From IMG/VR virus record IMGVR_UViG_3300013093_000022, positions 1 to 64,000 of that record: 64,000 nt of DNA. One strand, 5' to 3'. The DNA is from a virus. A program made the position numbers and the translations under genes. Shown here in pieces: positions 9,508 to 21,057 of the stretch (its first letter is position 1; each line of letters starts with the position of its first letter). The notes under the pieces were generated by a model. It saw nothing but the letters and a program-made list of their open reading frames with translations. It was not told the DNA's origin and did not search any database.

Positions 9508-9595
9508 GACCCGGGGAGAATCTTTGTGTAGACCCATATCGCCTAGGAACCGGCGTTGTTTTTACCGTCCTGGCACGTCGGCGTCGGAAGAAGGT

Positions 9596-9907
9596 CTACC
9601 CCAAGAACCCGTGTCGGGCTAATTCGTGCAACTCTGGCGAGTGCTTCGGGTTCAGTTCCTTCCGCCGGTCGGGATGCACCGATCCGCGACCCCAATCCGC
9701 CTGCGTCGGAGTCGGTAGCAACGATGAACACTCGTTCCCTGCGGTGGGGTGCGCCGACATCTCCAGCGGCAAGAGTTGTCCACTGCGCGTCATACCCGAG
9801 GTCGGCCAAGTCGCCGAGTACGGCTCCGGCTGCTCGGAGAAGAGGTCGCTCTGACTGGTCTCCCAGAGTTGTGTCTGCGGATTCCACGTTGCGATGGGCT
9901 TTGGCAC
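9596..9907 (-). CDS. overlapping-frame LPTP-family protein, short paralogue, 103 aa
   Basis: GTG 9907 has a Shine-Dalgarno-like GAGAGGA 7 nt upstream (9915-9921). The product starts MPKPIATWNP, has a TWPTSGMTRSGQLLPL block and one LLPTPTQAD unit, and ends at 9596 after HGFLG. It overlaps the methyltransferase relic in another frame. About four in five of its first 58 residues match the long paralogue at 19488-20681, including the same start signals, so this frame looks selected even though the host frame is truncated. Function unknown. Confidence 0.5.
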   Translation of the reverse strand: MPKPIATWNPQTQLWETSQSDLFSEQPEPYSATWPTSGMTRSGQLLPLEMSAHPTAGNECSSLLPTPTQADWGRGSVHPDRRKELNPKHSPELHELARHGFLG

Positions 9908-9986
9908 TGAGGAGTCCTCTCACGTTCTCGATGATCACCACACGGGGCCTGAGCTCGGCGATCGCCTCGGCGAACACGGACCACAG
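9891..9986. repeat. 96-bp direct repeat, copy 1
   Basis: Identical over 96 bases to 20665-20760. It spans the middle of the methyltransferase domain in one frame and the start signals of the overlapping LPTP-family gene in another. Flanking sequence is similar but diverged, which suggests recent recombination or gene conversion limited to this block. Confidence 0.9.
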
Positions 9987-10014
9987 GCCGGACGATACGC
10001 CCCGGCACATCCGA

Positions 10015-17687: not shown

Positions 17688-18309
17688 GCGACCCCTTCCA
17701 CGAGTCGGCCCAGTGGTGTACCGCGTAGATCCACGGGTTGGATTCTAGCAGCCTTCCCCGGTTGTGCTGTCCCGACTCGGTGTCTTTGTTGAAGAACTCC
17801 TTCACCGTCCAGTGGTACGGGAAGAAGCAGGCCGGGGGCAGCAGTAAGAGGTCGGAACGGTTGCGGACGCACTCATCGAAGGCCATGACACCCGACCACA
17901 GTGTCCCGTCGTTGTGGCGCTTCAGCGACAACTCGATGACCTGCTTGAGGGCGAGGTGCCCGGCCATCGCGCCGAACATGGCGTTGCAGACGCAGTCCTT
18001 GTCCTGCCAGCAGGCGAACATGGACGCCCCCAGCAGAGGGTCAAGCGGCCGCAGGACCTCCATGTCGGAGTCGACATACACGCCGCCCCGCCAGTAGACC
18101 TCCTCGGCCCGGACCAGGTCGGCCAACTGGGCCCCCGACTCGCACGACGACCAGTGGTCGCGGGTCAACGGAAACGCGGCCGGGTCGATCGGGTCGCGCA
18201 GGGTGACGTGCTCCCACGTGGGGTGCAGGCGGCACGCAGCCGACCAGAAGTCCTCGACCGTGCGGGAGGTCTCCTCGGGGACGACCCGGATCAGCCTCTT
18301 CGGGATCAC
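17650..18309 (-). CDS. DXD-type glycosyltransferase, 219 aa
   Basis: GTG 18309 overlaps the WhiB stop as GTGA. IPKRLIRVVPEETSR start, then LADLVRAEEVYWRGGVYVDSDMEV (about residues 65-88): the Y-x-x-G-G-x-Y-x-D-x-D arrangement of sugar transferases with a DXD motif (Gly_transf_sug family). Probably uses a nucleotide sugar and a divalent metal. First glycosyltransferase of the operon after the WhiB protein. Confidence 0.78.
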   Translation of the reverse strand: MIPKRLIRVVPEETSRTVEDFWSAACRLHPTWEHVTLRDPIDPAAFPLTRDHWSSCESGAQLADLVRAEEVYWRGGVYVDSDMEVLRPLDPLLGASMFACWQDKDCVCNAMFGAMAGHLALKQVIELSLKRHNDGTLWSGVMAFDECVRNRSDLLLLPPACFFPYHWTVKEFFNKDTESGQHNRGRLLESNPWIYAVHHWADSWKGSREAALGVRAQLS

Positions 18310-18590
18310 GACGAGGCTACCCTGTGGCGGTGGATCATGCGCTGGAGATTGCGCTCGGTCACCCCGCCCCACACGCCCCACCGGGTTCCAGTCCTGACCG
18401 CGAACTGGAGGCACTGCTTCTGAACCGGGCACGACTCGCAGATCCTGCACGCCCTGGCCGCATCCGACGCCGCCCCCTTCTCAGGGAAGAACAGGTCGGG
18501 GTCGACCTGCGAGCACAGGGCCTCCTCCATCCAGTTCTCGGAACGGAGGTGTGCCCTCATCATGCGCGTGACGCCGTCAACGGTTGTCAT
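18306..18590 (-). CDS. whiB-like: WhiB-family iron-sulfur regulator
   Basis: ATG 18590 with AGAGAGGTGAC upstream, overlapping the previous stop. The four-cysteine set C26, C51, C54, C60 (C-x2-C-x5-C) and the GVWGG turn (residues 72-76) are the WhiB signature; an extra Cys lies at 48. WhiB proteins bind a 4Fe-4S cluster and act with the host principal sigma factor. The gene sits between the methyltransferase locus and the glycosylation operon, so it could tune either or act on host genes. Length 94 aa is typical. Confidence 0.9.
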   Translation of the reverse strand: MTTVDGVTRMMRAHLRSENWMEEALCSQVDPDLFFPEKGAASDAARACRICESCPVQKQCLQFAVRTGTRWGVWGGVTERNLQRMIHRHRVASS

Positions 18591-19495
18591 GTCACCTCTC
18601 TGCGTGATTCCAGCATGGACTCAAGGAGCTGCTCCAAGGCGGCGACCGCCTGCAGGGACACCACGCCGTTGCCCACTATACGCAACTGCTGGCTGCGGGT
18701 GATGCCGATCTCCGGGTCGGTGACCCACCCCTTCGGCCAGCCCATCATCCACTCAGAGAACTCCGCCGAGAGCCGGGGGTTCCCGTTCTTGTTCGGCTCG
18801 GTCGGCAGCGGTGCCGGGCGGGTGATGCCCTCCCACCTCCGGATGGCCGCCTCATACCTGCCCCACTGCACGTCCACCAAGCCGGCCACGTCCCACAGCC
18901 TGCTCGCCCCGCCCTCGCCGGTGGGCTTGGTCACGTCGTCCCACTCCACGGGCCTCCTGCCGCCCTCGCCGTCGCTCACTGTCCTCATCCCTCCCCCCTC
19001 GTCGCCCGCCGTGGGGGTCGGAAGGTAATGGCTGATCGCGTCCAACGACGGCGCCATGTCGATCAGCTTCACTTGGTGCCCCTGACGCCTGGCGTCGTCA
19101 ACCTGGCCGCCGCCTCGGTTGCCCTCGGTCGCCGAGGGGGTGGGCAGCAGCTCTACGGCGACGGCGTTCAGCGGCGGCGTGTTGCGCCGGTACTGGGCGG
19201 GACCGGCGTTGTTGGCGGCGTCCTGCGCGGTCGGCGTGGGGAAGAGCTCGTTCACGACGACCTCCCGGAGGTTGCGGCACCCGCCTTGGGTCTCGGCCAG
19301 CTTCTCCGGCGAGCGCACGTGGTCGACCCGGTCGAAGGCCTGCGGGGTGGGGAGGAGTTTGTTCTCGGTGCCGAAGCACACCGCGTCCGACAGCGAGACC
19401 TGGTGGCCCTTGCGCTTGTCCGGGTGGGTGCTGCCGTGCTTCCCCATCTCGGCGTTCGGCGTGGGCAGCAGCGGGAAGTCGACGGGGTCAGCCAT
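18587..19495 (-). CDS. LLPTP-repeat protein ending in a C5-methyltransferase motif X, 302 aa
   Basis: ATG 19495, overlapping the previous LPTP gene by 8 bp. Five repeats of the form hhPTPxAxD (LLPTPNAE, LLPTPQAFD, LFPTPTAQD, LLPTPSATE, YLPTPTAGD) spaced about 30-45 residues, several followed by RR-x-GHQV. The last 60 residues (RLSAEFSEWMMGWPKGWVTD, then RIVGNGVVSLQAVAALEQLL) are the C-terminal motif IX/X region of C5-cytosine methyltransferases, which folds back on the SAM site. It therefore supplies the piece missing from 20341-21057; the repeats fill the place of a target-recognition region. Confidence 0.72.
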   Translation of the reverse strand: MADPVDFPLLPTPNAEMGKHGSTHPDKRKGHQVSLSDAVCFGTENKLLPTPQAFDRVDHVRSPEKLAETQGGCRNLREVVVNELFPTPTAQDAANNAGPAQYRRNTPPLNAVAVELLPTPSATEGNRGGGQVDDARRQGHQVKLIDMAPSLDAISHYLPTPTAGDEGGGMRTVSDGEGGRRPVEWDDVTKPTGEGGASRLWDVAGLVDVQWGRYEAAIRRWEGITRPAPLPTEPNKNGNPRLSAEFSEWMMGWPKGWVTDPEIGITRSQQLRIVGNGVVSLQAVAALEQLLESMLESRREVT

Positions 19496-20681
19496 CGTCG
19501 CGCGCCCCAGCGGAGGAGAAGTCGGGCCGCTCGTCGACCGTGCCCTCGTGGGCGCGAAGCACCGCAGCGCCCAACGAGTCGCCCCGGGGCCCGTAGCTGC
19601 CGACGCCCCTCTCCTTCTGGCTGCGGCGGCTCTCGTCCCACTCGGCGAGCGTCATCCCGCCGGAGGAGAGGCGGTCGACCACGCACGGGGTCGGCAGCAG
19701 CGCGGCGTCGCGGGGCATGTCCACCTCCACGGCTGCCGCCAGGCGGGGCACCCGCACGCTCGGGTCGTGGGCACCGCCCGTCGACGCGCCCCGGCCGTCG
19801 CTGGTCGTCGGGGTGGGGAGCAGCGACTGGGCCAGGCCGATCCGCTGCGCCTCCACCGACAGCGAACGGCCGTGGCCGTTTCCGTTGCCGTGCTTCTCCT
19901 TCAGCTCGGCGCACCACTCGTCGTAGCGGGCCGGGTTGGTGCCGACCTCCTTGGCGACGGGCGTCGGCAGCAGGTCGTGAACCGCCACCTGCGGCAGGTT
20001 CAACTGGTGGCCCTTGGCGCGGCGCTGGTCAGGGGTTGACGTCTGGCCGCCCGTGCCGTCACCGGCCTGCGGGGTGGGGAGGAGCCCCGACACGGCACCG
20101 GCCAGCTTGAGCCGGGTGCCCTCGCCCCGGTGGGTCTCCATAGAGCCGCCGTCCGCCGACTGCGGGGTGGGCAGCAGGGGATCGGCGGCCAGGCGGTAGG
20201 CGACGGTGGGCAGGTCCACGGGCCGGTGGGCGCGGGAGGGCCGCTCAGGCGATCCAGCGATGGAGTCGACGGCGGCGGGAGTGGGCAGCAGGCTCAGGTC
20301 GCCCGGCGCGGAGGGGGCATCATCGCCGCCACGGACGGCATCAGCGCCACCGCGTTCTCCAGGTTGTTGTACACCGGCTGGCCGTCCGGGCCGTAGCGGT
20401 AGGTTCCCCAGGCCGGCCGGTTTCGACCTCGTGTTTGACCCCTTGTTCGGCGCGTCCGGTGCCGTGTCCGGCGTGTGGAAGAGCGTCAACTGCGAGGATG
20501 AAGACTCGCTCCCTCCGGTGGGGGGCTCCGACGCTGGAAGCGGCAAGAGTTGTCCAGACCGCGTCATACCCGATTTGGGCCAGGTCGCCGAGTACGGCTC
20601 CGGCTGCCCGGAGAACAGGCTGATCTGCTCCTTCTCCCACAACTGGGTCGACGGGTTCCACATCGCGATGGGCTTTGGCAC
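19488..20681 (-). CDS. LLPTP-repeat protein with overlapping-frame N-terminus, 397 aa
   Basis: GTG 20681 with GAGAGGA 7 nt upstream. Its first 110 codons overlap the methyltransferase gene in another frame (20341-20681). N-terminal block MPKPIAMWNP, LFSGQPEPYSATWPKSGMTR, GQLLPLPASEPPTGG resembles sequences I know beside LPTP repeats in phage methylases. Then six repeats (LLPTPAAVD, LLPTPQSAD, LLPTPQAGD, LLPTPVAKE, LLPTPTTSD, LLPTPCVVD). Between the two methyltransferase pieces in order. Probably part of the same modification system, perhaps target recognition; role not established. Confidence 0.65.
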   Translation of the reverse strand: MPKPIAMWNPSTQLWEKEQISLFSGQPEPYSATWPKSGMTRSGQLLPLPASEPPTGGSESSSSQLTLFHTPDTAPDAPNKGSNTRSKPAGLGNLPLRPGRPAGVQQPGERGGADAVRGGDDAPSAPGDLSLLPTPAAVDSIAGSPERPSRAHRPVDLPTVAYRLAADPLLPTPQSADGGSMETHRGEGTRLKLAGAVSGLLPTPQAGDGTGGQTSTPDQRRAKGHQLNLPQVAVHDLLPTPVAKEVGTNPARYDEWCAELKEKHGNGNGHGRSLSVEAQRIGLAQSLLPTPTTSDGRGASTGGAHDPSVRVPRLAAAVEVDMPRDAALLPTPCVVDRLSSGGMTLAEWDESRRSQKERGVGSYGPRGDSLGAAVLRAHEGTVDERPDFSSAGARDDG

Positions 20682-21057
20682 TGAGGAGTCCTCTCACGTT
20701 CTCGATGATCACCACACGGGGCCTGAGCTCGGCGATCGCCTCGGCGAACACGGACCACAGTCCGGACCGGGTGCCGTCCTTGATCCCGGCGCGGCGACCG
20801 GCGGAGGAGACGTCCTGGCATGGGAACCCGCCGCACAGGATGTCCACCGGCTCCACCTCGGACCAGTCGACGGCGCTGATGTCGCCCAGGTTCGGCACCC
20901 CGGGCCAGTGGTGGCTGAGCACCGCCGAGGCGGCCTTGTCGAGCTCGGACTGCCACACCAACTCAGCGCCGAAGACCTCCTCGACGGCCATGTCCAACCC
21001 GCCGGCCCCGGAGAACAGGCTGCCCAGTCTCAACCTACGGGGTTCAGTAACCGCCAA
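20341..21057 (-). CDS. C5-cytosine DNA methyltransferase, N-terminal catalytic part, 238 aa
   Basis: TTG 21057 with GAGAGG 8 nt upstream. RLGSLFSGAGGLDMA is motif I, GDIS...DILCGGFPCQDVSSAG is motif IV with the catalytic Cys in PCQ, IIENVRGL is motif VI, and GAPHRRERVF is motif VIII. After motif VIII this frame loses similarity and stops at 20341; a WGTYRYGPDGQPVYNNLENA-like stretch continues in the third frame. Motif X lies in 18587-19495. Either a multi-part enzyme (M.AquI is a known two-subunit C5 methyltransferase) or expression needs frameshifting. Expected role: self DNA protection. Confidence 0.82.
   Translation of the reverse strand: MAVTEPRRLRLGSLFSGAGGLDMAVEEVFGAELVWQSELDKAASAVLSHHWPGVPNLGDISAVDWSEVEPVDILCGGFPCQDVSSAGRRAGIKDGTRSGLWSVFAEAIAELRPRVVIIENVRGLLSAKAHRDVEPVDPVVGEGADQPVLRAAGAVLGDLAQIGYDAVWTTLAASSVGAPHRRERVFILAVDALPHAGHGTGRAEQGVKHEVETGRPGEPTATARTASRCTTTWRTRWR
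20665..20760. repeat. 96-bp direct repeat, copy 2
   Basis: Identical over 96 bases to 9891-9986. See copy 1; here it lies within the intact methyltransferase frame and contains the start signals of 19488-20681. Confidence 0.9.

Follow-up and report, generated by a model that had tools for sequence, protein, structure and literature searches.

Overlapping phage genes as a probable split C5-cytosine methyltransferase with modular specificity

A C5-cytosine methyltransferase gene and, starting inside it in another frame, a gene of LPTP modules were located on the minus strand of the window (the whole 64,000-nucleotide stretch that was analysed, part of a 126.5-kb phage record). Judged from sequence comparison, they most probably form a split C5 methyltransferase comparable to M.AquI and M.EcoHK31I, encoded on overlapping genes and endowed with modular specificity. 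The product of the second gene (beta) looks like the DNA-recognition half of the enzyme whose catalytic half is the first (alpha). The original prediction, that an LPTP gene begins inside the methyltransferase, was correct, with the amendment that this gene does not represent a separate family: beta carried the LPTP modules and motifs IX and X missing from alpha, and belonged to PHROG 1008. One stretch of DNA is under selection for two proteins simultaneously, here and in many relatives that are annotated otherwise. To our knowledge, DNA phages offer few documented cases of long same-strand overlaps that encode two conserved proteins, and one of two overlapping frames is commonly discarded by gene callers.

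Layout of the locus and its two reading frames

The alpha ORF contained motifs I, IV (PCQ), VI (ENV), and VIII in order, as expected of a PF00145 enzyme. Motifs IX and X were present at the locus, but in beta 2 and not in alpha, and along 83 aa the C-terminus of beta 2 shared 66% identity with the IX–X end of a fused methyltransferase of phage Tweety. Both LPTP ORFs matched PHROG 1008, 'DNA methyltransferase', a family entry that is silent on overlap with a catalytic gene. Neither was matched in Pfam or NCBIfam profile searches, no PDB sequence was matched by the alignment of the beta N-terminus, and phage records gave no megablast match to the locus.

The stop codon of beta 1 overlapped the ATG of beta 2 by 8 bp (19488–19495, ATGGCTGA), and no clear Shine-Dalgarno sequence was found in front of this ATG. 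The division of beta into 397 and 302 aa could be a recent frameshift; a relative, L009, likewise contained three ORFs, but with the break at another place. Directly 3' of the methyltransferase genes, a WhiB-family regulator gene (PF02467) was located at 18306–18590 (-).

Features of the methyltransferase locus and of its second, incomplete copy
Feature	Position	Strand	Description
Alpha ORF	20341..21057	(-)	C5-cytosine methyltransferase, motifs I–VIII only; 238 aa, TTG start
Alpha, PF00145 match			E 1.2e-37, profile 2–162 of 324
Alpha, TIGR00675 match			Positions 3–162 of 329
Motif VI codons	20689..20703	(-)	GAG AAC GTG AGA GGA, double as second-frame Shine-Dalgarno
Shine-Dalgarno of second frame	20689–20695	(-)	GAGAGGA, within motif VI codons (ENV-AGA-GGA)
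Dual-coding overlap	20341..20681	(-)	341 bp; alpha motif VI to beyond VIII against beta 1 N-terminus
Beta ORF 1 (LPTP ORF 1)	19488..20681	(-)	397 aa, GTG start, +1 frame relative to alpha
Beta 1 make-up			Begins MPKPIAMWNP; N-terminal domain WNPxxQLWE..EPYSATWPxSGMTRSG, then LPTP modules
Beta 1, PHROG 1008 match			E 4.6e-24
Beta ORF 2	18587..19495	(-)	302 aa, ATG start; more LPTP modules, then motifs IX and X
Beta 2, PHROG 1008 match			E 1.9e-61
Motif IX	18719..18775	(-)	RLSAEFSEWMMGWPKGWVT, in beta 2
Motif X	18659..18688	(-)	QLRIVGNGVV, in beta 2
Second alpha copy	9543..10010	(-)	Fragment that runs from motif VI to a point past VIII and lacks motifs I–IV; PF00145 profile 88–165
Second beta N-terminus copy	9596..9907	(-)	103 aa, same GTG and Shine-Dalgarno

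The GTG at 20681 with its upstream GAGAGGA opened the second frame as predicted, and the overlap, put at about 340 bp in the original prediction, measured 341 bp. The same overlap, also claimed for the 9.5-kb copy, was confirmed inside the methyltransferase fragment there. When the differences between the two copies were recounted (9783–9890 against 20557–20664), exactly the reported 26 were obtained, with 12, 5, and 9 at codon positions 1, 2, and 3. This distribution had been read as a sign of conservation of the alternative frame; the count was right, but it did not depart significantly from equal shares (chi-square ~2.9, 2 d.f.), and pairwise evidence from two copies, one of them a fragment, is only suggestive. 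The alternative protein was indeed more similar than the methyltransferase, with 27/35 against 21/36 identical residues over the compared codons. GC content by codon phase showed a switch, within the overlap, from the frame of alpha to that of LPTP. The wobble GC of alpha decreased from 0.90 upstream to 0.61 in the overlap; for the LPTP frame it was 0.76 there, 0.92 in the part of beta 1 past the overlap, and 0.93 in beta 2.

The fragment at 9.5 kb was 69% identical to the main alpha over alpha residues 81–211. Along the roughly 100 bp that precede the beta start, this copy was nearly identical to the main one; beyond that point it had diverged, and it looks like a relic or a product of recent recombination.

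Conservation of the second frame in relatives

Relatives were collected in two sets. Set 1 was found by similarity to the beta N-terminus and comprised 28 non-redundant GTG/ATG loci. Because collection through second-frame similarity biased this set, the selection tests were repeated on set 2, which consisted of 76 relatives found only by the alpha N-terminus, upstream of the overlap. Expected values were derived by Monte Carlo redrawing of synonymous alpha codons with the codon usage of each locus itself.

The start codon was present in 28/28 loci of set 1, and start, Shine-Dalgarno sequence, and open frame occurred together in 25 of the 28, against an expectation of 0.001 per locus. Synonymous alpha codon differences were 0.16 just past the start, compared with 0.50–0.57 upstream, and within the overlap the first-position differences, which correspond to the wobble position of the second frame, became the most frequent. 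In set 2, 74 of the 76 loci had a second frame that stayed open across 60 codons, where 20.6 ± 3.1 were expected, and the upstream control was open in 17, compared with 11.0 ± 2.7 expected. Conservation of the second-frame protein gave z values of 22.1 and 25.2, compared with 3.9 and 5.9 upstream. Several set 2 loci, which came from phages of 41–50% GC, kept the second frame; long chance open frames are rare at this GC content. A broken second frame beside an intact methyltransferase had been named as the observation that would speak against dual coding. The frame was closed over the tested stretch in only two of the 76 loci, L157, which encoded a differently built enzyme, and L171, where an insertion shifted the start. 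The tests on homologous loci, which the original prediction had called for, supported dual coding well past the two copies in the window, with a second frame conserved beyond chance; this evidence from the family excludes chance as its source.

The start signal was itself written into motif VI. In GTG loci, ENV-R-G-LL-S was mostly spelled GTN-AG(A/G)-GG(A/G)-CTN-CTC-AGT-G, a spelling that contains both the Shine-Dalgarno sequence and the start codon. The rare AGA/AGG-GG(A/G) codons were usually retained where the GTG existed, and CGN was usual for Arg where the GTG was absent. Loci without the GTG usually had an ATG 18 nt upstream. In the Leucobacter relatives, alpha had acquired an insertion after motif VI, and both AAGGAG(G) and the second-frame ATG lay within it. 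Such an insertion with second-frame start signals was borne by homologues in bacterial genomes (L091–L115; Leucobacter, Microbacterium, and others), among which fused and split forms both occurred within one genus.

Distribution of motifs IX and X and the LPTP modules

The relatives showed several arrangements. In fused (F-type) loci, motifs IX–X were in alpha, and beta was an LPTP array nested in alpha. In split (S-type) loci, alpha stopped after motif VIII, and the LPTP modules together with IX–X were in beta. Seven EcoHK31I-like loci (L181, L185, L193, L202, L204, L206, and L208) had motif X in alpha and motif IX in a nested beta. A further arrangement, with three ORFs, was that of the window and of L009. 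When motif IX was located by sequence pattern in about 130 loci, it was found in alpha in 75, in beta together with X in 34, in beta alone in one, in beta with X in alpha in the seven, and in a third ORF in six, including the window. None of the about 130 loci had motif IX in two frames in this pattern search. In 11 loci with X in alpha, IX was missed by the pattern, and inspection revealed IX variants in most of them. Near-identical relatives differed in arrangement (L023 fused, L027 split), and in Leucobacter the alpha C-terminus of L091 was 63% identical to the beta C-terminus of L101.

In F-type loci, 142 stops were expected in the alpha frame and none was observed; since these loci were defined by an alpha that extends to motif IX, the open alpha frame is only supportive. 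Past motif VIII, the beta frame of the fused loci showed the third-position pattern that is usual for coding sequence. Because alpha of the F-type already has motifs IX–X, beta is not needed there for motif IX, and what beta does in these fused loci is the least secure point of the interpretation.

The overlap recurred in phages of Mycobacterium, Gordonia, Arthrobacter, and Streptomyces, and in low-GC metagenomic phages. Most second-frame genes lacked an annotation in phage records: among the matches listed, 8 of 60 phage records had two features under the match, and only one feature was annotated in Ramsey, Darolandstone, and Tweety gp69. In phage GigiOuiOui (L007:2642–3398), alpha was frameshifted into two ORFs while beta was intact, through either inactivation or sequencing error. 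L181, L206, and L208 held complete classic C5 methyltransferases with a nested LPTP gene of 273–554 codons in the other frame, and these nested genes contained a motif IX-like LNPxWVEWLMGFPxGWT.

The LPTP repeats clustered into about 30 types (29–32), and their order, position, and frame varied. Duplicates of one type within an array numbered 1–8 in the whole set, compared with 23–28 expected by shuffling. Tandem distinct modules lay between motifs VIII and IX, as in multispecific C5 methyltransferases, and each array behaves much as a collection of distinct specificities would, in line with tandem target-recognition modules.

In an AF2 model of a fused relative, motifs I–VIII and IX–X were modelled with high confidence, and values below 50 were obtained at residues 189–251 and 257–277, where the dual-coded tail and the LPTP region lie. 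The nearest folds to this model were M.HhaI and M.HaeIII. The model of a single beta chain had a pTM of 0.46, and a fold search with it returned only non-significant matches, several of them to other cytosine methyltransferases, which were not taken as evidence. With no significant fold match for beta, its putative recognition role rests on position and modularity.

Proposed enzyme, known systems, and alternative readings

In the proposed mechanism, alpha would bind AdoMet and catalyse methyl transfer through motifs I–VIII. Ribosomes would also initiate inside alpha at the GTG, guided by the Shine-Dalgarno sequence within the motif VI codons, and reading of the +1 frame would yield beta 1 with its N-terminal domain and LPTP modules. 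Beta 2 would start from the ATG that overlaps the beta 1 stop and add further modules and motifs IX and X. The alpha and beta chains probably join to form a single enzyme. Between motifs VIII and IX, its LPTP array would substitute for the usual target-recognition region, and each module type probably gives one sequence specificity. With one specificity per module type, we propose that the phage DNA would be methylated at several sites and so shielded from host restriction.

M.AquI (CYCGRG) is a two-polypeptide C5 methyltransferase with motifs I–VIII on the larger chain and IX–X on the smaller (PMC3404938). The same division was found in the S-type loci and in the window, where IX–X were on a second polypeptide, although beta was split into two ORFs here. 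Going by the description of M.AquI, the present loci differ in an overlap that spans motifs VI–VIII and in which each of the two proteins is conserved, and in a second chain extended by LPTP modules in tandem and by an additional domain at its N-terminus. In M.EcoHK31I, the small gene sits inside the large gene in another frame. This enzyme (YGGCCR) consists of two polypeptides with motif IX only on the smaller (PMC3404938), and the seven EcoHK31I-like relatives, compared by motif pattern, had the same motif composition. Assignment of the window itself to this type (alpha with I–VIII and X, beta with IX only) was rejected, as its alpha lacked motif X.

In Bacillus phage methyltransferases, the target-recognition domains are placed between motifs VIII and IX. 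Tandem domains of this kind confer several recognition sequences on the multispecific C5 enzymes of SPR, SPbeta, and phi3T (PMC8936443). The LPTP array resembled them in arrangement, but its modules are not known to be related to theirs, and those enzymes are single-chain and encoded in one frame. Furthermore, a C5 methyltransferase cut between motif VIII and the recognition domain yielded complementing fragments (PMC5944983). No description of the overlap seen here was found in the literature searched on split C5 methyltransferases, overlapping phage methylase genes, motif IX, and overprinting.

Dual coding could also be real with beta as an independent small phage protein, for example a regulator or an anti-restriction factor, overprinted on the methyltransferase. 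The retention of beta in F-type loci and the occurrence of fully nested beta ORFs, such as that of L208 (41% GC, 273 codons), fit such a protein. However, this origin is unlikely, because motifs IX and X were in beta where alpha lacked them and never in both, the C-terminus of beta showed homology to that of alpha in close relatives, and PHROG 1008 is a methyltransferase family. It is very unlikely that alpha and beta are made as one polypeptide through a programmed +1 frameshift or a bypass located past motif VIII, with the internal GTG unused: in S-type loci (e.g. L003 and L061) one frame change restores the order I–VIII, LPTP, IX–X, but the start codon and Shine-Dalgarno sequence were conserved, and a frameshift product would omit the beta N-terminal domain, which was conserved as a protein opposite motifs VI–VIII. 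Decay of an originally fused methyltransferase by frameshifts, with open frames as a high-GC artefact and shared sequence as common descent, would suit the 9.5-kb fragment, the broken alpha of GigiOuiOui, and the L023/L027 pair, but was already disfavoured and is hardly credible, given a Monte Carlo expectation built on the codon usage of each locus, the frame kept in low-GC phages, and the wobble GC and substitution pattern of a coding gene in beta past motif VIII.

A split C5 methyltransferase on overlapping genes is the preferred reading, and a class of such enzymes that is widespread in phages and mostly unannotated is the best reading of the relatives. More specifically, we consider it fairly likely that phage C5 methyltransferases include a large and for the most part unannotated class in which the specificity array is nested in the catalytic gene, or overlaps it, in the +1 frame, with the start signal in motif VI, with motif IX moving between frames, and with a single indel in the array converting fused and split forms into each other. 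The split enzyme would explain the many phage methyltransferases that look cut off after motif VIII, and would assign a function to LPTP repeat proteins. It would also suggest that some 30 candidate recognition modules form a shuffled library, with specificities that the methylomes of cultured phages could reveal, and would provide a natural test of overlapping-gene evolution where both products belong to one enzyme.

In one further phage locus (L086:2680–3705), an LPTP gene overlapped a full-length methyltransferase almost completely, and an apparent second DNA methyltransferase adjoined it.
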